Under the pieces are notes generated by a model, which was not told the DNA's origin, did not search any database, and worked only from the letters and a program-made list of their open reading frames with translations. DNA of 64,000 nucleotides from Physcia stellaris (Eukaryota; Ascomycota; Lecanoromycetes; Caliciales; Physciaceae): contig JABSSW010000037.1 in assembly GCA_018902385.1 (NCBI GenBank), positions 1 to 64,000 on the forward strand, given 5' to 3'. Below, in pieces: positions 1 through 46,500 of the stretch (position 1 is its first letter; the number at the start of each line of letters is the position of its first letter). The position numbers were made by a program, and so were the translations under genes.

Positions 1-566
1 GAAATTGATTTTACAATCGTTAAGCGTTTTCGTTATTTTGATTTCATTGAAATCGAAACACGACAAGAATCGATACAAATTTTATGAAATTGAAAATTAA
101 TCGAAAAACGAATTAAAAATACAACAAAATTTTCGTAATTCAATATATCGAATGAATCGACTATGAATCGAAATATGACGAATGACGATTAGTTTTCGAA
201 TTACAAAATTTTCAAAATTTCATCAACAATACGAATTCAAACATTCGCAAACATCGATTATCAACGACAAACGAAAAACGAAAAAATAAATTGATGCATA
301 ATATGATTACGCATGATGATAAAACATGAAATTCAATGAAAACATTGATTTTTTTTTTGATTGACAGATTGTTATGACACAAAAAAATCAAATTAAATGA
401 TATGAATTTAAATCAAATATTTTGACATGATTTTTGACAAAAATCTTGTCGTCAGTTCATATTAAATGAATGATAATCAAACAATTGATTCGCAATTACT
501 GTACATAAATTGACATTTTGTCGTTCATAATTTTTAAATCAATCAATTCACACATTACGCATAACA
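1..566 (+). mobile_element. Ty3/Gypsy retrotransposon fossil, 3' end only
   Basis: This is the 3' internal end plus one LTR of a Ty3/Gypsy element that enters from beyond the left edge of the window. Positions 1 to about 200 match, in the opposite orientation, the post-integrase end of the element at 38346-45800 (around 38.7-38.96 kb), and 370-566 match its LTR. It is therefore another insertion of the same family, on the plus strand. It is broken and heavily C-to-T mutated, with many breaks. It is an old or fast-decayed copy; the age cannot be read from divergence because the mutation process is directed. The 5' part lies outside the window. Confidence 0.85.
370..566 (+). repeat. LTR of the left Gypsy copy
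   Basis: A 197-base LTR starts TGTTATGACAC and ends CATAACA. It aligns along its whole length with the reverse complements of the LTRs at 38346-38539 and 45607-45800; the differences are mostly transitions plus a few bases of length change near the start. Confidence 0.85.
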
Positions 567-2331
567 ATTTACGACGTCAAAAATATAATTTTAAGAATTG
601 ATGTTGAACATCAATAACAACGAAAAAAATCGACGTGTTTGATATGTTACAAATATTAATCGTGTTCATAAAACAAAAAAAACGAAAAAAAAAAAAAAAT
701 GATCGATTCGATCGAAATGTTTTGCCGAAAAATGATTCGAAAATTTAATTATACATTGAAAAACAATATTGATCAATAATTTAATGTTTTGTACAAATAT
801 ATGAAAAATTGAAAATGTAAAACAAATTGAAAAAAATTTCAAAAATACGCATCATTTTATCGAAAAAATATTTCGATGTATTTTCGATTGACAAAAAATT
901 GAACGAACGTCGATACGATTTTTTGTATGAATTTAAAAACACGAATCAAACAATTTTATACGAAACGACGAATTTTATTCATTAAATAAAAAATGATAAA
1001 TTGTTCGAATTTGATTTTGACTATTAAAAATTCGCGAAATTTTCGAAACAATTTTGACTCGACAAAATACATTGAAACGTTGATTTTTTTGTTACGAATG
1101 CGTAATAAAATTCAAATCAATTCAATTCACGACATGATAAAAATAAAAATGACATCAAAATGTTGGAAATTAATCGACGATTTTTAGAAAATCGACAATT
1201 TTACGTTTTGTTTTCATTAATTCGAAATGTTCATGTAATTTCGAAAACAAAAAACATCGACGACATTGATTATATCAACAATATAATCGATTGAAATTAA
1301 TTTCAAAATTGTACAATAAAAATTACATGAATAATGACATGAAATTCGCGAAACAATATAAAACGACAACAAAGAAAAATCAATCGATGTCGTCGATTAT
1401 GAAAAAACGAAAATAACGCAAAAACGATCGTATCGACAGATGAAAAACAACGAAATTGTTTAAATTATTAAATAAATGAAATTTTGTTTCTGTATAAATT
1501 TGATGTTGAAAAAGAATTTTTATTTGTAAATTTTCGATATCGAAAAGCAAATAAATAATCGAATTTCGCGAATATGCGATGAAAATATTCGATGATTTCG
1601 AATTGATTTTGAACGTTCAAATATCAAACAAAACGAATTTTGATTCGCGAATCGATGCGTCGAAATTTTTTTCTCGACGTAATTTTGTTGACGAACGTTA
1701 ACAAAAAATTTCAACATCGTCGATTAAAACAATGAAAAAACAATTTATTTTGACGTGCAAAATTCATTTGTAAATTTCGTTCGATTGATTACGAAAATTC
1801 ATCAAATTCATTTGACATCGTTTCATGACAAAATTGATTGTGATTTGTTTCAAAAAATCTTTGACGATGACAGAATTATTTTTTTGACAAATTTCGCAAA
1901 TAACAAAAATATAATTGATTTTCGCTTGCGAAACATCGTAATATTTGTCGCGTATGATCGATCAAATTCGATTTCGATCAACGTGATTTTGATGTTTGTG
2001 TTCATTCATGACGAATTGATAAATTCATTGAATTTCGACGATTCGTTTGAAATCAAATTTTATTATTTTTTGTCGATTTTGATATTCGAATTCGCGATGA
2101 TGCAATATATTTTGACGAGAAAAAATTTTCGTTTGACGCGACTTTTGAAATTACGTTTCGTTTGATTGAAAATTGCGATTGTCGAATTTTTCAAATAATA
2201 ACAAAAATAAAAAAAATTGAAAATTCAATTTGATTTTGTTGTCATGTTCGCGTAATCACATCGTGATTTCAAATTCGATACGAATGTGAACAATCTCATT
2301 CGAATCAAAAATGTAACAACTGTTTCGACGA

Positions 2332-2391
2332 TCGAAAAATTGAATGATGTTTGAAATTTGTTCGAAAAATTGAATGATATTTGAAATTTGT
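2332..2391. repeat. 30-bp tandem duplication
   Basis: Two adjacent 30-base units (2332-2361 and 2362-2391) begin TCGAAAAATTGAATGAT and differ by one transition (G/A). Confidence 0.8.
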
Positions 2392-2634
2392 TCGAACATT
2401 TTGAATCAAACAGAATAATAGTAACGCGTAAACGTGAATTTGACAATTATCAATCAAATAATCGAAAATCAAATAATCAAAAATGATCGAACATTCGAAA
2501 GTTTCGAAACAAAACGCACATATAAGAAAATTCGTTCATTTTTCAATTATTGTTGTTTGCGTCATTTTTGTTTGTTGTTGTTTCAAAATTTTGTTTGTTA
2601 TCTGTAAAAAATCGCGAAAACGACGAAATATTTT

Positions 2635-2732
2635 GATTTGTCGAAAATTCGAAACGATTTCGAACGTCATGATTGCAAATTGTGATTTGTCGAAAATTCG
2701 AAACGATTTCAAACGTCATGATTGCAAAATTC
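2635..2732. repeat. 49-bp tandem duplication
   Basis: Units 2635-2683 and 2684-2732 both begin GATTTGTCGAAAATTCG and are nearly identical; a third partial unit follows. The duplication lies inside the AT-rich block. Confidence 0.75.
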
Positions 2733-2884
2733 GAAACGACATCAACGATTTCGATTGCAAATTGCAAAATTTTCATGTTTTTTTTGTTTTAATTCGTATG
2801 CGAAATTTTTGCAAAATAAAAGCAACAATAATAAACACGTTGATTTGATAATAAACGAAATGATTTGTCAATGATTTGAATATT

Positions 2885-2972
2885 GATCAATGAACGCGTT
2901 TATTGGTCAATGAACGTTGATTGATAAACGAACGACGTTGATTGATCAATGCTCGTCATTGATCAATGAACG
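2885..2972. repeat. TTGATCAATGAACG-type short repeats
   Basis: Four to five irregular copies of TTGATCAATGAACG or close variants stand at the extreme right edge of the AT-rich block. I see no coding role. Confidence 0.6.
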
Positions 2973-29200: not shown

Positions 29201-29247
29201 CTACGTACCCGGGAGGTTATATGTTAGTGTGCCAAGGCTACATGGGT
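29201..29247 (+). repeat. left TIR of Tc1 copy A
   Basis: Begins CTACGTACCCGGGAGG and pairs with 30760-30806 in inverted orientation with few mismatches. Confidence 0.9.
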
Positions 29248-29353
29248 CTCTACGATCTGCACCCGTTTCTAGCAGCTTCCATGGTCACTTCTCATACTAA
29301 TTTGTACTGCAGAGTACTTCACACCTTGCTTAACAACGGTATTACCAACAGAG

Positions 29354-30650
29354 ATGGATATCGCACTTCTATTGAATCCGGCGCCCGATGCGCCAGCAAG
29401 ACCTGTTACTCCTGCAAGGCCTGTTACTCCTGCAAGGCCTGTTACTCCTGCAAGGCCTGTTACACCGTCACGTCAACGTACTGCTCTTTTGACGCGGGAT
29501 CAAAGGCTACAAGTGCAAACGCTTCGAACGCTCAATTGGAATTACGAGAGAATTGCTCAACATCTCCGCTCAATCGGTATTAATTGTACTGCAAGACAAG
29601 TACAATATGCGGAGAAACACAGACCTACTCCGCAGAAACAACGTTGTGGCCCGAAGGCCTTGCTGAACACGCCTACCAGACGGCGAATAGCTGATTTCAT
29701 TACAAGCTCAAAGCGTACACGAAGAATGCCATTCATTCAGGTCAGCGAAGAATTACATCTATTCGTTTCCGAGGCAGTCATGCGAAAAGCTATGCAGAAA
29801 GAGGGGATATTTCGAAGATTGGCTAGAGGAAAGCCACCCATCTCCGAGAAAAACAGGCTTTTGCGACTTGCTTTTGCTCATGAGCATCTCAATTGGAGCC
29901 AATTACAGTCGAACGTTATACTGTGGACGGATGAGACTTGGGTAACGAACGGCAGGCATACACGGTAGGTTTTGGAGACGTTTTCAAGCTTCTCAGCTGA
30001 CTGAATTACTTTAGAACCTGGGTATCTCGGCGCGTTGGCGAGGAATATGAGGCCGATTGTATAGTGAAAAAAGAGAAATATCAATTTGGCTGAATGTTTT
30101 GAGCAAGCTACAGTTACAAAACACATACAATCGTGCCATTTCTGACCATAATCAGGGTGTATCTCCGGTGGTCTGGGCAAAGGACCGTGTTTATTCTGGG
30201 AGAAAGAATGGGGAACAATCACCTCAGAGACCTATTTTGCACGAATTCTCCCGCTTATTGATGGTATGATTGCCTCAATTGCTTCAAGAACAAGAGATAA
30301 CTTGAAATATAGGCTGGATTCGTATGCATTTCGAGCTTTGTCTCATGCAAGATGGAGCTAGAGGACACACTGCTCGCGCCACAATGACTGAGTTTGCGGA
30401 AAGAGGAATTCAGCCTATACAATGGCCTCCGTACTCTCCAGATTTGAACTCAATTGAAATCGTATGGAATTGAATAAAGAATTACATACAGGATCACTAC
30501 GATGAGAAGTTGAGTTATGATCGTTTACGTGAAGCGGTGAAAGTGGTCTGGAATTCAATTGAACAGTATCAATTGGACGATTTGATTGAATCATTACATG
30601 ATAGATGTTTGGCGGTTATAGCTGCAGATGGGAAACATATCAAATTTTAA
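29354..30650 (+). pseudogene. Tc1-type transposase, intron-containing, with premature stops
   Basis: The N-terminus has an 18-base minisatellite encoding PVTPAR repeats. A helix-turn-helix region follows (LLTRDQRLQVQTLRTLNWNY, then RIAQHLRSIGINCTARQVQ) and then the DDE domain. The first Asp is in LWTDETWVTN, the second in CLMQDGARGHTA and the Glu in PPYSPDLNSIE, with 34 residues between the last two (DD34E, Tc1/impala-like). Introns: 29965-30014 (GTAGGT...TTTAG), 30103-30155 (probably GC-AG) and 30264-30312 (GTATGA...ATATAG); each restores the family sequence (for example LPLIDGWIRMHFELC). TGA replaces Trp at 30091-30093, at 30100-30102 (next to the GC donor) and at 30471-30473 (WNWIKN), all in the GG-to-GA sense. 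The protein should therefore not be made in full unless these stops are suppressed. Confidence 0.88.
29396..29467 (+). repeat. 18-bp minisatellite, 4 units, in the transposase N-terminus
   Basis: Four tandem units of GCAAGGCCTGTTACTCCT (first and last slightly different) are in frame and encode repeated ARPVTP. The matching place in copy B has no repeat. Confidence 0.92.
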
Positions 30651-30759
30651 GCAATATCTCTTGTTCAGCTGCTTGATTTGTATGGTGATTTGTATGGTAG
30701 TCAGGCAAATTAGCTTGGGGACCCCTCTTCAAATTTCGTCTGATCTCAGGGTCCTTTCT

Positions 30760-30806
30760 ACCCCCTGCAGCCTTGGCGCACTAACATATAACCCCCGGGT
30801 ACGTTG
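30760..30806 (-). repeat. right TIR of Tc1 copy A
   Basis: The reverse complement begins CAACGTACCCGGGGG and continues TTATATGTTAGTGCGCCAAG, matching the left TIR. Confidence 0.9.
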
Positions 30807-30808
30807 TA

Positions 30809-31192
30809 CCTTGAGGTAGCAAGACTACTAGGTTGGGGCTAATGCTTGTTATCCACTCATCCAGCTGGAAGCTAATGTGTTGTCGATCTCCCGGCCGTAG
30901 TGCAGGATGGGGTGTGAGTGATATGCCGACACCCTTCAGTATCCGTACTCTAATCTATCAAACACTGAACACCATTCATAAATCTAGCCCTCACTTGGCC
31001 CCAAGAGCTTACAGAGCCGAACCTCCAGCTTCTCCCCTCTCAACACTTATACATCGAGAATTGGATTGCAGGCATTATCACCGGCTTTGAGCTTCCTCCC
31101 CATGGCTTGAGGGTGCTATTCGAAACAATCTCATCCCACAGCAAGCCGAACTCCATCCATCTCTTCGAGAGCCACGGGTTCTGCTCGTAGAC
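30809..31192. promoter_or_regulatory. LEO1 upstream region
   Basis: 384 bases between copy A and the LEO1 start. The transposon has displaced whatever lay further upstream. No specific element recognised. Confidence 0.4.
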
Positions 31193-32606
31193 ATGAGTGG
31201 CCACAGCTCCGATGACGAGGATGCCAATGCTCAACTAAATGGCGAAGAGGGCGCAGGTTTATTCGGATCCGGCTCAGAGGATGAGGGTACTGGCGAAGCG
31301 CGCAAGCTCAGTGACGAGGAACTCGATTCCGGCGATGACCAAGGCCGCAATGATCGTGTCGAAGACAACCAGAGTGAAACAAAAGAGGCCACTCATATAC
31401 GCGAAGAGAATGTGATAGACGTCAGCATTGGTCGCCATGCTATCCCGCAACCAAGCGACGGCGAAGTAAGTTCTCTGCCAAGCTAATCTAGTGATCATTT
31501 ACTGACGTTCGCAATAGATCCACCTTCTCCAGTTTCCAAGTTACCTGGGCATCGAGCCGAAAGCTTTCACCCCGAGCGATTGGAAGCCTCCAACCTCTGA
31601 GCATCATACCAACGAAACCCCATCATCCAATTTCTCCGCTTACCAGACCTCAAATAATACTATCCGTTGGCGGCACGCGCCAAATAATCCAAGTCAAATC
31701 CAGTCTAATGCTCGGATCATCCGTTGGTCGGATGGGTCTTTGACCGTTCAAGTCGCCTCGAATGCCAAAGAACAATTCGCGCTCTCTGCAAAGGCGCTCG
31801 CGCCTCCACAGATCAATCCTCCCAAACCAACTCCAACGTCTCTCTCGGGAAAACAAGCAGAGGGGAAAGTGCCGTACAATCCTCGCCTCGACTCGCACAC
31901 CTACCTCGCCTCCTTCCATGAATCCAGTTCAATTCTCCAGATTACCAATCACATTACCTCATCCCTCGCCGTACAGTCGTATGCAGACGAGGATGACGAT
32001 GCCTTGATCAAATTGCAGGAATCTCTAGCAGGTGCCACTAAGAATCACAAAGGGGTCGAAGGCGTCGAGATCATGCATATCACCGAAGATCCGGAGCTGG
32101 CAAAGAAGAAAGCCGAAGTCGCGCAGAAGGAGGTACAAAAAGCGGCACGTCGCCGACAGCTACAAGAAGAAAAGGAGCGCGACCGGAGTAACCGTGTACT
32201 CGGTCGCTCTGGATTGCGTGCTGGTGGCTACGGCGGTGGCCTTACTATCGGAGGGTTGGAGGATGACGAGGGCATGGCTAGGCCGAGGGCACGACCGGGC
32301 AAACCAAAAGCCAAGAAGCCGAGGCGCCGGAACAGCGAGTACAGCGACGAGGAAGAATTCGCAAATAGGGGACGAACCCGAGAAGATGAATACGATGAAG
32401 ACGATGGCTTTTTGGTCGGCAGCGATGAAGAGCCGGAGTTGGTGGAGGATGAAAGTCCTGAAGAAAATGATATCGATATGGAAGAGGAGCGCCCCAGTAA
32501 GAAGAAAGATGCGGTAGTTGAGGAAGAAGCCCCGGCTGCAGCAGGTAGTCCTCGTGGCCGGACCAAGCGTAGGCGCGTGATCGACGACGAGGACGAAGAT
32601 GAGTGA
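31193..32606 (+). CDS. LEO1: Paf1-complex subunit Leo1
   Basis: Subunit of the RNA polymerase II-associated Paf1 complex, acting in transcription elongation and co-transcriptional histone modification. Exons 31193-31465 and 31518-32606 (donor GTAAGT, acceptor AATAG) give 453 residues. The N-terminus is acidic (SSDDEDANAQLNGEEGAGLF, SDEELDSGDDQ). The Leo1 core (about 92-245) has FPSYLGIEPKAFTPSDW, NTIRWRHAPN, RIIRWSDGSLTVQV and PRLDSHTYLASFHESS. An Arg/Lys-rich helical region (KAARRRQLQEEKERDRSNRV) and an acidic, Lys-rich tail ending DDEDEDE follow. All features and the length fit fungal Leo1. Confidence 0.95.
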
Positions 32607-33423
32607 AGAAACTACCTTCAATCACATTTGGTGTTTCGGGTGGCGCAAAAACAACTGCATGTTTTGTACGATAGACATAGGGCGAGTGATGGATACCGGC
32701 CATGGACCGACAGGTTAGGCTGCATTTTGATCGCACTTGATAATGTGCATTGGAGTTGTATACCAAGTCATGCGAGATCTTCATCAATTCATAGCTGTGA
32801 TACATTTGCGCGTCCGAATTTCTCACCATTCAATGGAAATTGGCAGTGGTAGAAGGAGTGTTTGAATTCCCTTTCATCTCAATTATTTATGAATGATATC
32901 CTGCTTGATCGAGTGCCGCTTGAATCTCCGTCGCACCCAGTCTAGAACACACACAGAGTATTTTCCTCTCTTCCCTAATTCCTAGCTGCTATCAAGGCCA
33001 CCTAATCCAGCACCCTCATCGTCGAAAACATCCTCATCTTTATAAGCCCTCAAGAGAAAAAATTCATGTAGCACCAATTCCACAGCCCCATCCTGCGCCA
33101 TCCCCCCGTAGAAGAAGGAAGGTATAAACAGACAGACCTGAATAGGAAAGAACCAATGCAAAAAGCTCATTCGCTCAAGGGAGCCGGGAACGGAAGACCT
33201 TCCACGTGAGAATCCTTTGAAAGAACAAGGGACTCATCCGGATAGACCCTCAGCAAGCCGCCCGGAGGCGGAGCTCCCATGATTTTTGTAGATTATGTTG
33301 TTATCCACTGATGATGGGGAAGAAGAGAAGAGAGGTTGATGGAGGGTGGGAAGGAGAATTTATCGGGTGGGAGGGGGCTAGGTGGGATTGGGTGTGGTGC
33401 GGCGAGCTTGGCGAGATAGCACC
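32607..33423. other. intergenic, LEO1 3' side
   Basis: No gene supported. G-rich at 33305-33415. Ordinary composition continues up to Tc1 copy B. Confidence 0.45.
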
Positions 33424-34944
33424 TACTACGTATCCAGCATGTTATATCCTAGTGCGCCAAGGCCGCATGGGTCTCTCAGATCTGCACCCTCTTCTAGCAG
33501 CTTCCATGATCACTTACGCATACTAATTTGTATGACAAAATACCTTCACCGTCGCTCAACAACGGCATCAACAGTAAAAATGAATATATCACTTTTGCTG
33601 AATCCAGCGCCCGATGTGCTTGCAATATCACCAATTCCTGCTACGTCTCAACGTCAACGTACAGCTTTATTGACTCGAGATCAACGTTTGCAAATACAAA
33701 CTTTACGCACACTGAATTGAAGTCACGACAAGATAATCGCACATCTTCGCTCGTTGAGCATCAATTGTACTACGTATCAAATGCAATATGCGACAATCAA
33801 TCGAGTTACTTCTCAAAAACAACGCTGCGAGTCTAAAGCCTTGTTGAACACTCTCACAAAACGACGTATAATCGATTTTATCATCAGTTCAAAACGTACA
33901 CGTCGTATGTCTTTCATTCAAATCAGTGAAAAGCTTCATCTCTTTGTTTCTGAGTTCGTTATGCGAAAAGCCATGCAAAAAGAAAGAATATTTCGAAGAT
34001 TGACTCGAACAAAGTCACTCATCTTCGAGAAAAACAGACTTTTGCGTCTTGCGTTTGCTCAAGAGCATCTCAATTGAATTCAATTACAATGAAATGTTAT
34101 ATTGTGAACGAATGAAATCTGAATAACGAATGACAGACATACACGATACGTTTCGAAGAAATTTTCAAACTTCTGAGCTGACTCAATCAGAACTTGAATA
34201 TTTCGACGCGTTGACGAAAAATATGAAATCGATTGTATAATGAAAAAGAAAAAATATCAATTCGACTGAATGTTTTGAAATTGCATTTTCGATGATTTGA
34301 GCAAAAATTTCTGCTTGTTTTGAAAGAAAAAGTGAAAAATCATTACATCGAAGTCATATTGTCAACGTATTCTTTCGCTTATTAATGATATGACTGTTTC
34401 AATTGCCGAACGAACGAAAAATAACTCGAAACATAAATTGAATTCGTATGCATTCAGAGTTTCGTTTCATGCAAAACGATATTAAAAAACACATTGCTCG
34501 CGTCACAATGAGCGAATTTGCAGAGAAAAAAATTCAATCTATACAATGATTTTCGTATTTTTTCGATTTGAATTCAATTGAAACAGTATGAAACTGAATG
34601 AAAAACTATATACAAGACAATTACGATGAAAAATTGAACTATGATCGTTTACGAAAAGCTGTGAAAACAGCGTGAAATTCTATAGAACAACGTTAATTGA
34701 ACGACTTGATTGACTCATTACATGATAAATGTTTAGTCGTTATAGTTGCAAATGAAAAACACACGAAATTTTGAGCAACATTTCTGATTCAGCTGCACAG
34801 TTTGTATGACAAATTGTATGATAATCAAACAAATAAATTGAGAAAACTTTTATGCTTTTCTTTTCGATTTTCGTTTCATCTCAGAATTCTTTTTATTTTC
34901 TGCAGACTTGACGCATTAGAATATAACATGCTGAATACGTAATA
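33424..34944 (+). mobile_element. Tc1/mariner DNA transposon, copy B, heavily CpY-mutated
   Basis: The element is 33426-34942 (1517 bases) with flanking TA at 33424-33425 and 34943-34944. Left end CTACGTATCCAGCATG and right end (reverse complement) TTACGTATTCAGCATG form the TIRs. It aligns with copy A throughout, including LLTRDQRLQ near 33665 and the HTH and DDE regions. Most differences are C-to-T or G-to-A at CpC or CpT. Its first 150-200 bases are hardly mutated, whereas the interior is saturated. The transposase frame (33582 onward) is destroyed by many stops. It lacks the 53-base segment that copy A carries at 30103-30155. Confidence 0.9.
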
Positions 34945-34948
34945 CGTA

Positions 34949-34983
34949 CTCAGAACGATTTCACGTGAAATCTCAAACTAGCG
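34949..34983 (+). repeat. left TIR of the outer transposon
   Basis: Begins CTCAGAACGATTTCACGTG and is the inverted partner of 46501-46535. Confidence 0.82.
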
Positions 34984-35607
34984 TGCAATTAGATTAGTTT
35001 TTTCATCAAAATATCGTAAACAATAAATAAATCTTTTCATTTGATCACATTAATTGCAATTGCAACGCAATCATTTTATTTATACGTTTATAACTTTCTG
35101 ATATGTTTCGTAAAATTAAAAAAAAATAAACGAATTATCGATTCGAAACAATGCGATCAATAAAAAGCGCGAAAAATCGATCGACGATGTTTCACAATAT
35201 TTCAACAAATGAAAATAATTACTTTGAAAAAACACGATAATACAAAGCGAAAAATGAAAATCAAAACGAACATAAATCAACGAAACGTAAACAAAATATA
35301 GAAACGAATCATGAACAAATTAGTGATTTCAATGAATATAAAAATTTCTCGTTACAAAATTTCGTTAACGTTTGACAAATCGATGAAATTTGAATTGTTT
35401 ATCATCGATTTTCGTTGTTACGAATACAAATTCACATCACATGCAAAAACAATCACGAATGAACAAATCGAACGTATAATTGATTACGTAATGTCGATTT
35501 CAAAAATCAAAAAAATGATTGCTTTGAAATTTATCAAAAAAATGAATTTGAAAAATTTGAAACACGACAAATATGAACGTGAATTATTTTTATCGAAATT
35601 TTGTTTT

Positions 35608-35795
35608 TGTTACGAACATGTCTGAAAATCTCGATTGAAATCTTATTTTATCAGCGAGAGTTCTTATTGAAATTAGCGCGATTTAGAGATTTGACGCTCA
35701 CAATTTACTTCTGACATTCGATTTTCTTGTACATATTTGCTCTTTAGATCAAATATTCTCGTTATGCTATTTGTTTTCTAGGCATGCGTTTTACA
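35608..35795. repeat. left LTR of the short element
   Basis: Starts TGTTACGAACATG and ends GCGTTTTACA; direct copy at 37412-37599. Confidence 0.85.
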
Positions 35796-36059
35796 TTATA
35801 TTTGATTTTCATCGTGACGAGCGATGTAAACTTCACATTCGCAAGATCAGCGAGTAGAAAAAAACGCGATCATTCAATTCGTGACGATTTCACTTTCAGC
35901 ACGAAATCTCAATCAATTTCGTGACGATCGCACACTTTCAGCACGAAACATTCTCAATTCGCAATGACGATGATTCATTGTCTTTAGCACAGCAGATTTC
36001 TCGTACAGAATTAGCGAAATTAATTGTTATTCGATCAAATTCTGTTTCTGTGAATTGTT

Positions 36060-36250
36060 CGTCGAAATACGCGAGTAATTAAATAAAATCGCCAAATATG
36101 CTCGTAGAAATACGCGAGTAATTAAAGAAAATCGCCAGTTGCTCGTAAGAAAAGCGAATAGAAACAATGTTTTCATCGCTCGTAAAGATACGCGAATGTT
36201 CAAAAGAAAATCGTCGAATCACTCGTAGAAATACGCGAGTCAAAAGAAAA
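36060..36250. repeat. degenerate tandem repeats inside the short LTR element
   Basis: Four to five irregular units of about 40-50 bases contain CTCGTAGAAATACGCGAG followed by AAGAAAATCG. Confidence 0.65.
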
Positions 36251-37411
36251 TCGTCAATCTGAAATTTTTTCTTTGAAAACAATGATTGCATTTCATTTTC
36301 ATTATGCGCATCGTGAATCAGCGAAAATGATCGTGAGTTTGCGAAAATGACGATCTTTTAATAGTTGATTTTTTTGTTTTGAAAGTCAGTCAATCAGTGA
36401 GTTTGTTACAACGACAGTCAATAGTCGATCTTCTTGTTCGTCGAAATCAATCGACATTCGATCAATAAACGATTTTCATGTTTTTTCGAGTCAGTCAGCT
36501 CACTCATCAAATGATTTTTACAATATTCATCTTTTTAAGCGTTGAAACATCGCTTGATAAAGAAAAAAATAAAAATCACACACACACATACACATCAAAT
36601 CAACAAACAATCATTAAAAATTTCAAACAAAAAATTTGAATTACGTTTCGTTTCGTTTTTGTTTCAACGATCTGTCTGCTTCAACGGCACTCAGTGAGTT
36701 CGCTAAAACGATTAGTGAATTTGCTTCAATGAAATTTTATTAACGAATCTGTTATAGCAATCTCAATGAGTTCGCTACAACGACACGAAAAGCGCATGCG
36801 TTCGATTCTTTACATTTTTCGCAATCAACATCAATGAGAAATGAATTTATTACATACAGCGATACGAGAACAAATGACATGAAAAGATGAAAAACAACAA
36901 TCAACGTGAATTTGTCACGCAGCAAATTCAGCTCGTCTTTTTCGCAATTTTTTGTCTGTTTGTCTGTCTGTCGTCAACACGTCATATTTCGAATATCTGC
37001 AATCAATCAGAACGCGTCGATTAATAAGAATTCGAAAAGTCCAAATTCGAAAAATTTGAAACAGCATACGTTCGCGAAATCGATATCGCTTTGTTGCTTT
37101 TCTGTTCGAGAAATCGATCGTTTCATCATACTAATTTGCAGATATTTTTCGCATCAATTCGACAAGATTTTCAACAAGATTCTCAACAAGATTCTCATTT
37201 CGATTGTTCTGACATATATTCTGTTTTCGTTTTCGTTTTTCTGTTTTCGAATTTATCTCTTCACGTTTATCGCATTTGATTTGAAACTTTCAGCGTCAAT
37301 CGTGATCAGACAGATATTTAGATCACAATCAATGAATTTCGTCACGATGTCGATCGATAAAAAAAATGAATATTCGTTTCGGAACGAAGTTTGAAAAAAA
37401 GAAGAAAATAG

Positions 37412-37599
37412 TGTTACGAACATGTCTGAAAATTTCGATTGAGATTTTATTTTATCAGCGAAAATCTTTATTGAAATTAACGCGATTTAGAAACTTGACG
37501 TTCACAATTTATTTTTGACATTCGATCTCTTTGTACATATTTGCTTTCTAGATCAAATATTCTCGTTATGCTATCTGTTTTCTAGACATGCGTCTTACA
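37412..37599. repeat. right LTR of the short element
   Basis: Starts TGTTACGAACATG and ends GCGTCTTACA. Followed directly by the duplicated GTTTT. Confidence 0.85.
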
Positions 37600-38345
37600 G
37601 TTTTAAACAAATAATGTACGATTTTGAATATGATCGTGAAATAATTGATTGAAAAATCGATTTGAACAATAAACATCGACAAAATCGATTTTTTTTTGCG
37701 CAAAAATATCGTCATTTTGATTGAAAACGTCGAAATATATCGTTTGACGAAATCAAAATTAAAAAAATCGAACATTATAACAAAAAAATATAAAAAGTTT
37801 CAAACGAAAAATTGAACGTCAATGTGATCAATAAATCAAAACAATCACATAACAAAATCATGAAACAAATATTTGTTCGTATTGAATACAAATACAAATT
37901 CAAATTGATGTTTTTTTGATTCGAAACAGAAAAAAAAAGCAAAAAACAACGATCGATTTGAAATCAAAAAACGAAAATCGAATCAATTGAAATGTTTTGT
38001 TATTTGCGATCAATCAAGAAATTAAACAACAAGAAAAAACGATTGTTGATCGCAAAAAATTTGAACGTAAATTTCAATACGAAATGTTCAAACGAAATCA
38101 ATTGCTTATTCGAAAAAATCGCTTTAATGAAAACATGAATTGATATATATATTTCAATAAAATATTGAAAATTGACGCGTTTTTTGAATTGAAACGATTA
38201 CAACAACAAAATCGAAATTCGATCATGATCGAAAACAATGCAAAAAATCACATCGTTTGTGACGAATTTTGAAATATATATAAATGTCACAAATTCAACG
38301 ATTGATCAACGAAAAGTTTCGATTTGAATTCAATCGAAAAAATTT

Positions 38346-38539
38346 TGTTAAACGTGATGTGTGAATTGATTGATTTAAAAACTATGAACGACGAAATGTC
38401 AATTTATGTACAGTAATTGCGAATCAATTGTCTGATCATCATTCATTTAATATGAGATGACGACAAAATTCTTGTCAAAAGTCATGTCAAAATATTTGAT
38501 TTAAGTTCATATCATCTAATTTGACTTTGTGTCATAACA
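38346..38539 (-). repeat. 3' LTR of the Gypsy element (minus orientation)
   Basis: 194 bases, TGTTAAACGTG...GTCATAACA on the plus strand. The same length as the partner at 45607-45800. Confidence 0.93.
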
Positions 38540-41500
38540 ATTTGTCAATCAAAAAAAAAAGAAAAATCAATGTTTTCATTGAGTTTCATGTTTTATCATC
38601 ATGCGTAATCATATCATGCATCAATTTATTTTTTTTTCGTTTTTCGTTTGTCGTTGCGATCACTAAAATCATTCGGATGATTGAATTCGTATTGTTCAAT
38701 AAAATTCGTGACGTTGTTCAATTCTGAAATATTTCGTCATTCGTCGTATTCTGAATCGTAATTCACTCAACGAATCAGATACTGAATGACTAAAGTTTTG
38801 TTGTATTTTCTGATTCGCTTGTCGATTAATTTCTCGACTTCATAAAACTTGTATTGATTCGTATCACTTTCGATCTCAATGAAATCAAAATAATGAAAAC
38901 GAAAACGTTCATAAAAATCAATTTCGACAAATGTTGATTCGAACTGTGCAATAAACACGACGAAATGAATTCGTCATGTTGATGACAATTTCAATTTGTA
39001 CGCGAAACGTTCGATGCGTTCAAAAATTCGAAATGATTCGCAACGTTGTTGAAATAATTTCGAATTTGATCTGTCAAACAGCTTGTAATTTTTGTTGAAT
39101 TGTAAATAAATTTTTCATTTTGTTTTAATCGAATAGAAATATGACGCGAGTCATAATATATTTTGATTTTGACAGTCGCAAAATTCGTAACATCGACAAT
39201 TTCTCGCTAATATTTCATGCGTTGAGTTGACAAATTTTGTATTTTTGCTGTGTTAAATGCGATTAAATTTGATATCGCGTTTTTGATTTTGAATTCGTAT
39301 ATGATTTCGTTGAATGATAAATTTGTAGCGATGTTAAACGTGTTGTTTAATTGAATTTGAATTGTCGAAAAAGCTAAAATGTAATCGATGTTCGAAAATT
39401 CGATAACGAAATATCTGATAACAATTTCAACAATTTGATTGATTCGTTTTGACGAGTCATTCGTTTGCGAATGATATGTCATTGAAATCAGCAATTTCGT
39501 GTTTAATCTGATAAAAAATATCTGTCAAAAATTCGACATGAATTTTGAATTTCTGTTTGAAATTATAATTTCAAACACATTTCAATCGACGATTAATAGT
39601 TTGTTCAATAATGCGTTGATTCATTTTTTCGCTTCATAAATGTTTTTGTCGAAAATCAATGAAACTCGACGAAAGTGTTTACAAATTGCGAACATAATCG
39701 TGTTCATTTCGTCAAACATAATTAAAATGAAATCAATGACAATGATATGAAACGAACGCGAAACGAATGTGATAAACATCAATTTTTCGTAAAATCGATG
39801 ACGCTTGATTTGTGTTAATTGACAAATAAAACAGTGCTCGATGTATTTTCTGATTTTTCGCGAAAATCGAAGTATGTATAACGTATTGAAAATTTTGTCA
39901 TAGCATCGATGAACTTTCGAATGATGATTTTGATCGTGAACTAAACGAAATATTTCGCGTTTCACAATGACAAATATACACGATCGACGCGAATCAATGT
40001 TAACGTGATATATAATGTCATTCGTATTTATTGCGAAATTAATTTTTGTTTTGAATTTCTTTGATATAAATTTCGTATCGTCATTTTTTTGTTCATTGAC
40101 GTTTCGCTTCGCTACGTTGTCTTCGAACGACGATGAAATTTGAAAATTTCGAATCGACAATTTTTGTTTTTTTTTTGCACTCGAATCGTCAGCGATTTTA
40201 ACATTCTGATCATGTTTCGTCATGTTTTTTTTTTTTGATATTCGTTCTTGATTTTTTTCTTTAAATTTTTCGACATGACAATAAGAATGTCTTGAAGAGC
40301 GTAACAATCGAAATTATTCGAAAAATCGATTATTTCGTCATGATATGTGTTCAGATCAAGTCTATTTTCTGAATTTTTGTCGATTTGTTCATTTTCAAAA
40401 GTTAATCTTGATAGCGCATTCGAAACGACATGATTTTTTCTTGATTTATATTTCATTTTCAATCTAAACTGTGACAAATAAACTGAAACACGAACGAAAC
40501 GAAAATTGAATTTATCGATGTTGTTCGAGTTCATCGTGATTTGTTTAACGATGAAAATATTGACGACATGATTCGTGAAAACGACAATGATATTTTTGAT
40601 TGTTTTTATCATATATCGAATTTTTTTGACAATTCATATTAAATCACACATTTCGAATTCGATGAATCAATATTTGATTTCGATTTCGTTCAACATTCTG
40701 CTTAGAAATAAAATGAGTTCGATGTCGTTACGCTTGAATTTGTCTGAATTGTTGTTTGCTTTAAAATGATAAATCATCGCGTCGAATTCGCGTCGTTTAA
40801 ACGCATCGATGTCGATGTACAATTTTCGATCGAAATTGAAATGTATCAGAAATGAAATTTTGCTAGAAATCTTTTGCAATAGTCGATATGATTTTAATTT
40901 TTCAATTGAAAAATTGTTCATTACAATTTTTTGCGAATAAATTTTGCGAATCGTTTTCTTGTTGTTTGAAAATTGACGTAAAAATAAAATTTTGCGACGT
41001 TGTAACGCGTTCGTTTTTTGAACATAAAACGCGACGAAATCTCGTAATTATTTTGTAAAATTTAAATAAATTTTCAGATTTTTGAAAATATAAAAAAAAT
41101 TCAATTTGACTATTGTTTTCAATTTGTCGATTGCGATAATGAAATCAAAAACGTCAATTTTTTGATCAAAAAGTGCGATCGTAAAATAGTCGAAAAACGA
41201 TTTTTTCGACGATAAATTAATTTCATAAATATTCAATCGTTCGAATATCGAATGTAAATGAATCATATGTTTTTCAAAAGTATTGAAAAAAACGACAATG
41301 TCGTTTACGTAAACACGAACAAATTCGCGAAAATTTCGAAAAATAGAGTCGATTCGTCGCTGTACGTATGATGATAAATTTTTGAAATTCATCACGACGA
41401 CGTTAAATTGTTTCTGTCTTTTATGTGAAACGACGATAAATTTATGTTTGTTTGCAAACTTTATCAATCATTGATGAAAGAAATTCGCAACGTCAAAAAC

Positions 41501-44500
41501 GAATATGAATTTGCAATCGACGACAATTGAAATAATGTCTGATTGAAAAAGCATAAAATAAAAATCGATTAAAATGATTTTGTTTAATTCGCGTATATTC
41601 ACGACGATTCGATTTTTGCGTTTTGAATCGTTTGATTCAAATACTGTTTTTCATATTGCGAAAACAAAATAATCATGCGAAATGAATTGATTGATATATT
41701 TCATGCGTTTTTGAACGTGCAATTTATCGAAAATTTCATCAACTAGCTTTCGATTTGCGAAATCGAAAAAATAAATTTTTGCTGCTTTTATTTTCGCGTC
41801 GAATTTGAATTCAATTGACATTCATTCATTTTTCGAAATTCGTACGATAAATTCATTGTCGTTTCATAATTCTGAATAATTCAACGCAACGTCTGCAAGC
41901 TTAATTCGAGCGTTAACGTCATCGTAAACGATAATTTCAACAAACAAAACTTCTTTCGCACTAATATTAGAATTTACAACAATAAAATCGTTAAAATTGC
42001 GTGCAAAATTGAACGCAAAATCGACATTTGCATCGACGAAATTAGTCGCGATCGCATCGTGCAAATTCTCATAATTAATCGTCATAGTCGCGTCAATTGT
42101 CATGATCGAAACATCAAATTTCAACGTTTGCTTGAATCAATTTTTAGAAACAAACTTATGAGCATTAGCAACTAAATGAACGTATTTCGAATTAACTAAA
42201 TAGTATTCTTTTTTTTCGTATTTTTGTACGAATTTCAAACGCGTATTTTTGAAAATGTAAACATTTTCAAAGTTGATGTTGTGAACTTGAACGATTTCTG
42301 TATGTGCATCGATGATATGTGAAAACACGTCTTCATTTTGATTTAATCGTTCAATTCGTGCTGACGTAAACATAAAGTCGCGTTCAATAAACAGATTATC
42401 TTTGTCACGTAACTTGAATGAAATTGTAAAAGTTGATTTGATTGAAATTTTAATAATTTCGTTAGCACGAACAACGCGCTTGATTTGTGATTCAACATTA
42501 ATAACATTTAATTTAACTCGTATATTTTTGCAACTTTTTATAATGACGACTTGTTTGCTTACATTTATATTCATTTGCTCTGAACTCAGTATATCATTGT
42601 TTAGAAAAATTTTTGTTTTCAGTTTTTTCATTATGTAAATTTGTCGCGTAAATGTGACAATCGCATTCTCGTCATCAATCGAAATTTCAAAAACACGAAA
42701 AATTAATGAAATATGATCAGTTGTTGTGACGACGACATTTTCGATATCGCGAATTTTGAAAAATTTCATGATTTGTCGCGTATGAACTCTGTAATCAAAT
42801 ATTTTTTGCATCAGAAATTTACGATCGATTAATGACGCATCGCATTCGATATCGACGCACATATCGATGAAAAATTGTTTTATGTTTGTTTTCATCGTGA
42901 CGTAACGTCACGAGCGAAATTCGAAACTGAATCGTGTATTTGTTTTGACGCTTGATTGTATGATAAATGTCTGATAATTATGAACATCTTTCGTCGACGA
43001 TATGTCAAATTTAATCGAAACTGTCTGACACGAACGCAAATGTCGATGAAATTTGTTATTAAAATAAAATTCCGATTGACAACGTTTGCATGCATAAATT
43101 TTTGTCTGTTTGATTGAAATATTCACAAAATATTCAAATAACTCATGAATCACATAACTTTTATTAAATTTCTGAATTTCGAAATGTTTCTCGTCATGAT
43201 ATTTTTCATTTATCATAAATATTTTTGACGCGTTTTCAATATTCATGTTGTGATTATTTTGATAATTTTTTTCATCGTTTGAATAATTGTTTTTTGTTTT
43301 TTTTTTCGCAAAGTACGTTCGTCGATATGATGTTTCATTTTGATTTGACGTTTCATTCTGATTAAAATAAATATCTTGCTTAGACGAAAACGGAAATAAA
43401 TTTGAAAAATCAGCAAAATATTGATTAAGACGTAAAAATTGCGAATATTGAGATCGCGAATCGAACGTGTTTCGATTTTTTTGAATTTCGTTTTGTTGCG
43501 TTTGTTGAAATCGATATTGCTGATTTTCGTATGAACGTTTTTGCATATTTTGTGTCGATTGTTGTCGATTTGAATAGTTTGATTGATACGAACGTTGTTG
43601 AAAAATGTAAACGTTATTTTGCTTTTCAAACTGATACGATGTCGAATATTGAATTTGACGAAACTGCGAAAAAAATTCATTGAAATTTTCGTAATCTACA
43701 CGTTCATTGATAACAGAAAGAGTATTATACGAATCGAATGAAATTGATGTTGATAATTGAAAACGATAAATGAATTGAGAACGACGCTCGTTTTCGAACG
43801 AATGATAAAATCGATATCGATTTTCGATGTTTCATTATATTTTCTTTTTATCATCGAATTGTTGAAAAAACTCATTCATTGTAATTTTTTCTGTTGATTT
43901 GATCAAATTTCGTCGAAATTTCAATTTCAATTCATTGTAAATTAAATACAGTTGCGAGTAAATTGATATCATTGTCGATTTAGTTTTTCTGATTATAATT
44001 TCAACGAAGTCGAATGACTCGCGATGTCGACGAGCATTTTTCATCGTGTATTTTTTTTTCGTGATGATCGTCAACGTTGTTGATGACGATTTTTTGTATC
44101 GTTTCAACAACAAACGTTTTCATTTTTTTACGTCATTTTCGAATTTGATCAATCGTTTTTGATCATCGTTGATTATTTTTGTGTATCAACGTAACGCGTG
44201 ATCACGCATGCAATTATAAAAATTTGTTCGAATCACATCAACATCTTTGAACAATGTCATATTTTTAATTTTTTCAATGTAAAAATGAACATTTCGAAAG
44301 TATGTATTTTTGTTCGAATGCTCGATCGAATTGTCGATAATAGCGTTCTTTTTTTCGTATCACGAATCGAAAAATTTTGTTTTTTGAGCATTTCATTTGA
44401 CGTCATCGTCATTGTCAGAAAATTCGATTGAATCTGATGATTCGACAAAATTTTGAAATTTTGTCTGAACATCGTTTCGAACATTTGTAATTAATGTCTG

Positions 44501-45606
44501 AAAAATTTGTCATTGCTGTTGTGTAAATTTCGTGTTCTGTCAATTGTTATTTTCGCTCGTCATGTTTGTATTGAATGCAAAAATAAATTCGATATTTTTT
44601 GTGTTTCGAGAAATAATATTCAGCGAAACTATGATGCTATTTCGTCGTTGAAAAAACGAAATCGACGAAATGACTTGAAATTTACGACGTAAATTTTCCG
44701 AAAAATGAATGTAAAAAATATCAAAAAAAATATTTGCAATCGTCGATTTTAAATCAAAAATGAATGACGTAACACGATCATTGATTCAATCGAAAAATGA
44801 TTGACTATTTCGATAAGTTTTTGTGACGATCACGAAAGCTCTAAAATCTTTGCGAAAGCGAATTTTGTCGACGATTCACTTTGTTGAATAAACAATGTTT
44901 GTCGAAATCGAATGATTAATGATTGACAACGATGTTGATTTAAAAAAACTGATTACGATGTTGTTCACAATAATTTCTGTCGATGTATTGACAAAATAAA
45001 TCGAATCAATTGTATCGATGTAATCGAATAACTCGAACGCAATGCGAATGACTTGTGATGTGAAAACAGTCAAAATGATTTAAATGAAAATGACAAGCAA
45101 TGCTAAATTCTGAAATAAAAAATAATAAACAAAACAAGAAAAAAAAAACGAATTGAAATTTTCAAAATAATTGAGCAAATTTTCTGTTGTTGAAAAAACA
45201 AATGAAATCGTTGAACTGAAACTGTTCGAATCAGACAAAAATTCAAATGTGAATTGACATTCAAATGCGTCGTCATTGAGCGATGACAATGCGAATTTCA
45301 GCGAAAGTTCGAAATGCTTTGAATATTTGAATGAAAAATCAATCGTTTCTGCTGAAAATTGTAAAAAAAATGAAAAATTTGATTGAAATTTTCATTTTCA
45401 ATTGAATATTTGTTGCTGATGATTGATTTCGATCGACACGTCAATCAAACGACAATCAAATTTTTGATTGCGATCGTGAAAAAAATACTGATGAACAATT
45501 GATTTGCATACAAAATGCAAAATTGTTCGAAAACTGATACGTTAAAAGACAAAAAATGATGTCGTTTTGTTTACGTACAAATCATCGCTTGAATGATGTT
45601 ATCAAT

Positions 45607-45800
45607 TGTTAAACGTGATGTGTGAATTGATTGATTTAAAAATTATGAGCGACGAAATGTCAATTTATGTACAATAATTGCGAATCAATTGCCTGATCAT
45701 CATTCATTTAGTATGAGATGACGACAGAACTTTTGTCAAAAATCATGTCAAAATATTTGACCTAAGTTCATATCATCTAATTTGATCTTGTGTCATAACA
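45607..45800 (-). repeat. 5' LTR of the Gypsy element (minus orientation)
   Basis: 194 bases. Thirteen transitions and no length change relative to 38346-38539. Confidence 0.93.
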
Positions 45801-46500
45801 AATTTGAACGTGATGTCGTCAATGATTTAAAAACAACGATATGATGTTTTATAATCGACGAGAAATCATGATTGAATGAAAAACGATTTGAAAGATTTTA
45901 TCTTATCGATTAATCAACAAATGATTCAAAAATATGAAAAGTTTATTAAACAAAATCATTGAACATGAAAACAACAACGATTTTCAAATTTAAACGACGT
46001 TTACACGATTTTCGATACAAATGTTGTTTTGATATTGATATGTACGAATTATCGAATTGACAACATCACGTACAGATATGATTTGAATCATGCGATTGAT
46101 GATTTGTACGATTTGATTTTGACGAATTCATTTCAAAAAAGTTGTTTCATTCATGAAAATCATTTCATCGTTTTGTTGCATGATATTGTTGATTTTTGAT
46201 ATAAATTTTAGTGTATCGTTTGTTTGAAATCGTCTATGATTCATAAAAAAATTATTTGAATTGTTTGAAAAATGTTAATTTGCTGAAATGAAAAAGAAAA
46301 AAGAATTCGAATTCGACGCAATTCTAAAGCATTTACACACAAAATCGATCGTAAATTGCACGAGTACGTTAGTCATAACGTAAATCTAATCGTATAAGAG
46401 ATAATAGAGCAACAGATTGTGTGATGATGATGCAATCGAATTAATAGAGAATATAATTGAAAATTTCTGATATTTTTGGTGAAGCGGAGCCGGTTATTAG

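Follow-up and report, generated by a model that had tools for sequence, protein, structure and literature searches.

Repeat-directed C-to-T mutation at cytosines preceding pyrimidines in Physcia stellaris: a probable RIP-like genome defence with an altered context rule

In the portions of the literature available to us, repeat-induced point mutation (RIP) is mostly treated as a process acting on cytosines that precede adenine (CpA), with CpG or CpT as additional targets in certain species, and it is commonly detected by indices based on CpA and TpA. In Neurospora crassa the order of preference is CpA>CpT>CpG>CpC, and in Trichoderma reesei CpA and CpG are about equally affected, followed by CpT, with CpC least (PMC5496416). 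Here we describe a 64,000-nucleotide stretch of the Physcia stellaris genome (assembly GCA_018902385.1, 44 Mb, with genes of ascomycete type; contig JABSSW010000037.1, positions 1 to 64,000; hereafter ‘the window’), together with related loci of the same assembly, in which Tc1-type elements, retroelements and a ribosomal DNA (rDNA) copy carry C-to-T changes on both strands in a context almost opposite to the C-before-A rule that is usual in fungi. An earlier note on the window had proposed a directed system of this kind, perhaps through a diverged RID/DIM-2 pathway or a cytidine deaminase.

The resemblance to Neurospora lies in the C:G to T:A changes on both strands of repeats, in the presence of RID-type and DIM-2-type genes, in the AT-rich blocks and in the fact that rDNA copies can be mutated (PMC5555474). 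However, the order here is CpC>CpT>>CpA, CpG, and TpA falls here where it rises there. T. reesei likewise has RIP with a species-specific context order, demonstrated in crosses, but CpC comes last there and first here. In Botrytis cinerea, Sclerotinia sclerotiorum and Magnaporthe oryzae, a CpT signature is reported together with a CpA signature; in contrast with our data, CpA is thus affected, and the accessible part of that paper names no CpC signature for these species (PMC4352252). CpT to TpT is dominant in a Neurospora Tad1 alignment (PMC2621366) and in the fungi used as controls in a survey of 58 species (PMC7882544), so that a large contribution of CpT has precedents.

Monilinia shows CpC to TpT double changes alongside classical CpA changes (PMC8959702). 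The basidiomycete Microbotryum has a CpG/TpCpG target linked to Masc2-type enzymes (PMC4352252), a non-CpA context as in the present case, but with CpG targeted there and spared here. A CpC-rich spectrum has already been tabulated for another basidiomycete, Rhizoctonia solani AG8, in which single-nucleotide polymorphisms are spaced at 214 bp for CpC, 370 for CpG, 422 for CpA and 491 for CpT; these are heterokaryon polymorphisms, however, with CpA and CpG not spared, and the authors describe a CpG bias (PMC4014442). Mutated rDNA or internal transcribed spacer sequences of other ascomycetes carry mainly CpA changes, although in Neurospora the CpT share is comparatively large (PMC5555474, PMC7493409). 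A k-mer screen of 1,239 genomes reported AT-rich repeat signatures in ascomycetes, as here, and described RIP-like defences as sharing a CpA preference (Badet and Croll 2025, PMC12543289); the present genome contradicts that preference as a general rule. No report of a CpC-preferring, CpA-sparing RIP was found in the accessible text of the openly licensed literature searched.

The following features of the window, and one locus outside it, are considered first (o/e, observed-to-expected ratio of a dinucleotide).

1..2950, no strand assigned: AT-rich block; G+C 0.26, CpC o/e 0.02, CpT 0.11, CpG 3.66, CpA 1.30 (measured over 1-2900); right edge at about 2.9-3.0 kb
29206..30805, plus strand: Tc1-type element copy A, the reference copy, not hypermutated (G+C 0.45 and CpC o/e 0.89 over 29237-30790); short terminal inverted match at 29207-29246, minus strand
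31193..32606, plus strand: Leo1-like gene lying between the two Tc1 copies, of unmutated composition (control); Pfam Leo1 match with E 3e-40 on exon 2, 31518-32603
33426..34945, plus strand: Tc1-type element copy B, whose CpC and CpT sites are hypermutated on both strands while CpA and CpG are spared
34946..46500, no strand assigned: AT-rich block with a degraded retroelement; G+C 0.29, CpC o/e 0.03, CpT 0.40, CpG 2.81, CpA 1.25, TpA 0.44
C22:377673-379150: third full-length Tc1 copy, used to assign changes to branches

The proposal had rested on 136 aligned bases of copies A (29830-29965) and B (34011-34146), in which 13 C-to-T type changes were counted at CpC, four at CpT, three at CpG and none at CpA. 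Our recount is within one site of these numbers, with CpC at 12. The changed sites are 12/13 for CpC, 4/16 for CpT, 3/16 for CpG and 0/20 for CpA; the lack of CpA among the changes has a chance probability of 0.0002, and cytosines before pyrimidines (CpY) exceed those before purines (CpR) at 16/29 versus 3/36 (Fisher p = 6e-5). Over the whole element, with 1,498 aligned sites, the raw counts are CpC 89/139, CpT 91/185, CpA 25/206 and CpG 16/138. The two copies are 72.8% identical, and 109 of their 407 differences are transversions. They are somewhat different subfamilies, which differ also by ancestral changes.

On the branch leading to copy B, polarised with copies A and C22, the changes amount to CpC 73/96, CpT 57/115, CpA 9/137 and CpG 3/82 (p ~1e-38). 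As the last two counts are small, the raw differences between A and B at CpA and CpG lie largely off B's branch. C>T or G>A changes number 165 of 202 on that branch, against 37 of all other kinds, and the directed changes fall 60 on one strand and 82 on the other. The branches of copy A (CpC 0/19, CpT 16/87, CpA 17/169, CpG 14/104; p = 0.39) and C22 (CpC 0/14, CpT 6/61, CpA 8/141, CpG 4/80; p = 0.41) have no significant CpY excess; CpC sites are few on both because B lost most of them. Of the three copies, then, only B was hit; the attack affected CpC and CpT on both strands, with the fewest mutations at the left end of the element. The sparing of CpA claimed earlier holds in the short stretch and on the B branch. 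So does the preference for C before a pyrimidine on that branch, with the corrections that CpG is spared too and that mutation clearly affects CpC more often than CpT.

The pattern might be an artefact of comparing different subfamilies, a worry already raised in the earlier note, or of a 3' neighbour misread through its own mutation. Copies A and B do differ by ancestral changes. Nevertheless, the pattern persists on the polarised branch, and the Rfam reference, the alignment-free dinucleotide counts and the stop types presented below all agree with it; a simulated CpA process, used to control the counting routine, was read back as CpA. We consider an artefact barely conceivable.

The consequences for codons were followed in those open frames of copy A that reach at least 100 aa; there are two, and one of them is probably noncoding. 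In copy B, TGG had become TGA in 5/5 cases, whereas CAA>TAA (0/11) and CGA>TGA (0/8) were not found, nor was any of the five CAG codons turned into a stop (0/5), four of them having become CAA. Separately, the N-terminal part of the transposase frame of copy A harbours, at about 29395-29465, an in-frame tandem repeat (four ARPVTP units) that is absent from copy B.

An independent reference was provided by one locus outside the window.

C41:41500-50400: hypermutated rDNA copy with large-subunit (LSU), 5.8S and small-subunit (SSU) parts, about 30% G+C, from Rfam matches

The unmutated state of this copy is known because rRNA is universally conserved. We compared it with the Rfam consensus, counting only sites with strong conservation (upper case) of both the C and the base 3' to it, and leaving out stretches beyond the aligned length or ill-aligned. 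CpC was changed at 87/94 such positions and CpT at 54/100, a significant difference (p ~7e-10), with CpA at 0/80 and CpG at 0/70. C>T or G>A account for 201 of the 210 changes at conserved positions and all other kinds for nine. Both directions are common, with 49 C>T and 92 G>A. When weakly conserved positions are included, the counts become CpC 281/389, CpT 146/263, CpA 32/234 and CpG 55/300; the CpA and CpG changes at these weakly conserved positions were taken to reflect genuine divergence of this species from a pan-eukaryote consensus. The 5' base has little effect, except that GpCpT is less mutated (5/24 versus 49/76, p = 0.0003). The 5.8S search of the assembly gave one match above the cut-off, that of C41, and two weak ones below it; neither this search nor a DNA search found a second or unmutated rDNA copy in the assembly. 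Several insertions interrupt the SSU and LSU parts and are possibly introns.

These counts bear on two further explanations. CpC and CpT are pyrimidine pairs, as expected of ultraviolet-type damage. Such damage should, however, also change TpC or CpC before a purine, whereas in the rDNA YpCpR was changed at 0/89 sites and RpCpY at 65/99, and the gene-like DNA examined is unaffected. We give this explanation next to no credence. AID/APOBEC enzymes mutate in a 5'-base context and with strand bias. A cytidine deaminase of this type, acting on repeats or on element cDNA, would match the dominance of C-to-T type changes, but here the 3' base decides, the 5' base being minor apart from GpCpT, and both strands are mutated in copy B and in the rDNA. 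Furthermore, the rDNA copy and a DNA transposon are affected as well as retroelements. An APOBEC_N search of the genome gave no match, but it gave none in control genomes either, so that, with no positive control, absence is not shown. As the 3' base sets the rule and both strands are mutated, the deaminase alternative is left unsupported, and we regard it as very unlikely.

To place the elements in the composition of the genome, 226 distinct 1-kb pieces were collected from the window and from loci mostly chosen by similarity to repeats. All 90 pieces with G+C <0.35, from 25 contigs, have CpC o/e values of 0.00-0.37 (median 0.00), together with CpT at 0.02-0.74, CpG at 1.92-4.80, CpA at 0.99-1.67 and TpA at 0.27-0.60. 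None of the 90 is depleted in CpA. All 122 pieces with G+C >=0.42 are normal, with CpC o/e at 0.64-1.20, and the other 14 are intermediate. Among ten positions fixed in advance, two were AT-rich, with CpC o/e values of 0.00 and 0.09, CpT of 0.08 and 0.51, and CpA of 1.22 and 1.44. The transition from mutated to gene-like DNA is abrupt, within about 100-300 bp, with no visible spread. The genome-wide check suggested earlier, whether CpA dominates beyond copies A and B, thus yielded CpC-poor AT-rich DNA throughout this sample. The possibility that CpY mutation overlies earlier CpA mutation was considered and rejected, in view of the TpA values and of CpA o/e values of at least 0.99 in all 90 pieces. 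The CpG depletion expected of 5-methylcytosine deamination or of decay of the type of methylation induced premeiotically (MIP) was not seen in these pieces either, given their CpG o/e range.

The standard RIP criteria, as given in the accessible text of PMC2621366, are a product index TpA/ApT >=0.89 and a substrate index (CpA+TpG)/(ApC+GpT) <=1.03. No segment of the window (0/127) passes both, and a (CC+GG)/(TC+GA) ratio <0.3 marks 31/127. When a CpA process was simulated on copy A, TpA/ApT was 1.53 and (CpA+TpG)/(ApC+GpT) was 0.39; a simulated CpY process gave 0.48 and 1.45, respectively. Of the canonical features of RIP, CpA preference is absent from the rDNA (CpA 0/80), and no window segment (0/127) combines a raised TpA/ApT with loss of CpA. 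Since the CpA/TpA indices shift in the reverse direction where mutation is heaviest, an index method would call this genome RIP-free.

The AT-rich block at 34946..46500 carries on its minus strand, at 39621-41467, a reverse-transcriptase piece, below the Pfam cut-off, and an integrase zinc-finger piece. A search of the genome with window positions 40000-43000 listed 128 candidates; the 40 that were scored as matches include the window itself. The block belongs to a high-copy retroelement family. We aligned eight copies of that family and counted the columns with an invariant 3' neighbour. The C is kept in all eight copies in 0/7 CpC and 0/421 CpT columns, as against 446/681 CpA and 542/643 CpG columns. 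Each 6-kb copy retains 0-5 CC+GG and 28-210 CT+AG dinucleotides, but 715-765 CA+TG. The private transversions amount to 82 in 8 x 5,920 sites, or 0.17% per copy. With CpC near zero, the copies still differ in their remaining CT+AG, and CpT loss could rank them by the number of attacks.

Fungal cytosine methylation sits in repeats. One might therefore explain the losses with no hypermutation event at all, by slow passive deamination of 5-methylcytosine at CpC and CpT in just the DNA where methylation is found. Between pairs of the eight copies, transversions are by no means negligible (2,116 differences summed over 28 pairs, about 1.3%), a figure that includes differences older than insertion. 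However, a near-total loss of CpC beside so few private transversions means that the directed change was far faster than the background, a poor fit for passive decay, and the ratio of 201 directed to nine other changes at the conserved rDNA positions also speaks against it. We hold passive deamination to be improbable. Ultraviolet damage, a deaminase, passive decay of 5-methylcytosine and the subfamily artefact were all considered and rejected.

Stop codons in protein matches follow the same rule. Among the reverse-transcriptase (RVT_1) matches, 150 scored of 527 candidates, the internal stops are 250 TGA, 33 TAA and three TAG, and 23 DDE_3 transposase matches contain 47 TGA, six TAA and two TAG; these counts are not of independent events, as copies of one family share codons. 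The excess of TGA is what the CpY rule predicts, GG>GA giving TGG>TGA. The TAA and TAG stops need other sources.

Repeat-directed C-to-T mutation with a C-before-pyrimidine rule is thus shown by five kinds of evidence, namely the Tc1 copies, the eight-copy family, the rDNA, the stops and the composition. This part of the earlier proposal stands; its deaminase branch finds no support. The type of substitution, its context rule, its occurrence in several kinds of repeats (a Tc1 element, retroelements, an rDNA copy), its absence from the gene-like DNA examined and its fairly sharp borders are all observed. The sparing of single-copy-like DNA is judged by the composition of the pieces. These features are probably best explained by a genome defence that resembles RIP but follows a different context rule, in which repeats are mutated from C:G to T:A in the order CpC > CpT >> CpA, CpG. 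In such a process, repeated DNA, whether transposons or a stray rDNA copy, would be recognised by the defence, and any cytosine with a pyrimidine on its 3' side would be turned into thymine, on either strand. CpC would be lost nearly to exhaustion, CpT at about half of the sites in moderately mutated copies and near exhaustion in the worst, and CpA and CpG would rarely change. Stops would come mainly from TGG>TGA; CAA, CAG and CGA would not be expected to become stops, the change of CAG to CAA being silent. The work would be done by an enzyme of the RID/DIM-2 family that reads the 3' base differently, a RID paralogue being the likelier candidate, and presumably in the sexual cycle, as in Neurospora. 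The system works like RIP, but we do not call it canonical RIP because the CpA feature fails, and because the premeiotic step and the dependence on RID are presumptive.

Several observations weigh against a RIP-like defence. Copies A and C22 of the Tc1 element, 80% identical, are unmutated and of normal composition. The same holds for two retroelement copies, most other examined copies being ruined.

C5:1166521 and C12:60312: a pair of long retroelement frames without hypermutation, sharing 95% identity over 3,468 bp

The C/T differences between these two lean slightly to CpY (74 versus 49 at CpA/CpG, p = 0.025). The unmutated Tc1 and retroelement copies imply that the process may be rare or intermittent, inefficient, in need of a cross, or lost. 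Along copy B, the order of the strands is weakly clustered (69 runs versus 81 expected, p = 0.03). Sparing is not absolute in the eight-copy family, where C/T variation occurs in 235/681 CpA and 101/643 CpG columns and T is found in 8.5% of CpA and 5.0% of CpG cells, although in the rDNA the two contexts together have 0/150. Duplications below about 400 bp escape RIP. Seven short Tc1-derived copies (232-327 bp) have a pooled CpC o/e of 0.91, but this exemption is not clean, as three of the seven are at 0.48-0.68. One of the methyltransferase genes described below, at C6:791557, contains two TGA in its six-frame match, which we place in introns of the predicted model. Lastly, no enzyme is tied to the CpC/CpT pattern. 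The seven short copies, for their part, are MITE-like (resembling miniature inverted-repeat transposable elements), with both Tc1 ends present, and their CpG is depleted (o/e 0.37), unlike that of gene-like DNA here.

A search for the cytosine methyltransferase domain (PF00145), which had been proposed as a check, identified three genes in the genome.

C6:791557: RID/Masc1-type methyltransferase, 513 aa (predicted gene model)
C5:499307: RID/Masc1-type methyltransferase, 934 aa, with a long N-terminal part (predicted gene model)
C3:340323: DIM-2-type methyltransferase, open frame of 1,118 aa

The first two proteins are 40% identical over 307 catalytic residues and 34% over 149 N-terminal residues, and neither model has lost the SPPCQ or the GNAVPP motif. 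We take them to be of the RID/Masc1 type from the EQT/EET motif that replaces ENV and from the N-terminal part. Judging from the predicted models, the RID-type and DIM-2-type genes look intact, with no visible damage. Two RID-type methyltransferases of very different lengths thus occur in one genome. Such a gene pair is not new in itself, since RID/Masc1 genes are on record in one or two copies, and a table seems to give two for Botrytis B05.10 and Sclerotinia (Amselem et al., PMC4352252, accessible part).

Within a RIP-like defence, the mutating enzyme could possibly be the DIM-2-type protein rather than a RID-type one, by way of the DIM-2 pathway described for older repeats of Neurospora, in which RIP is abolished only when RID and DIM-2 are both deleted (PMC11969663). 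The gene is present with a long open frame, and according to the available text of a 2026 review Neurospora DIM-2 methylates all CpN, with CpT preferred (PMC13297926). However, CpC exceeds CpT here, as the rDNA positions show, and the edges with gene-like DNA are sharp, with no visible spread. We regard this version as the less likely one, though a serious contender.

The natural switch of context, together with two RID-type genes in one genome, offers a direct route to what sets RIP specificity. The effect of RIP on genes is altered as well, as stops arise mainly from tryptophan codons. It is an even call whether there is a fungal lineage whose RIP-type defence reads C before a pyrimidine, in near mirror image of the CpA rule, by means of a re-tuned RID paralogue, with surveys based on indices scoring such lineages as RIP-free. 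If that were true, RIP would occur more widely, and its specificity would be less rigid, than is currently assumed. One further gene was located in the genome.

C4:738502: MAT1-1 alpha-box gene

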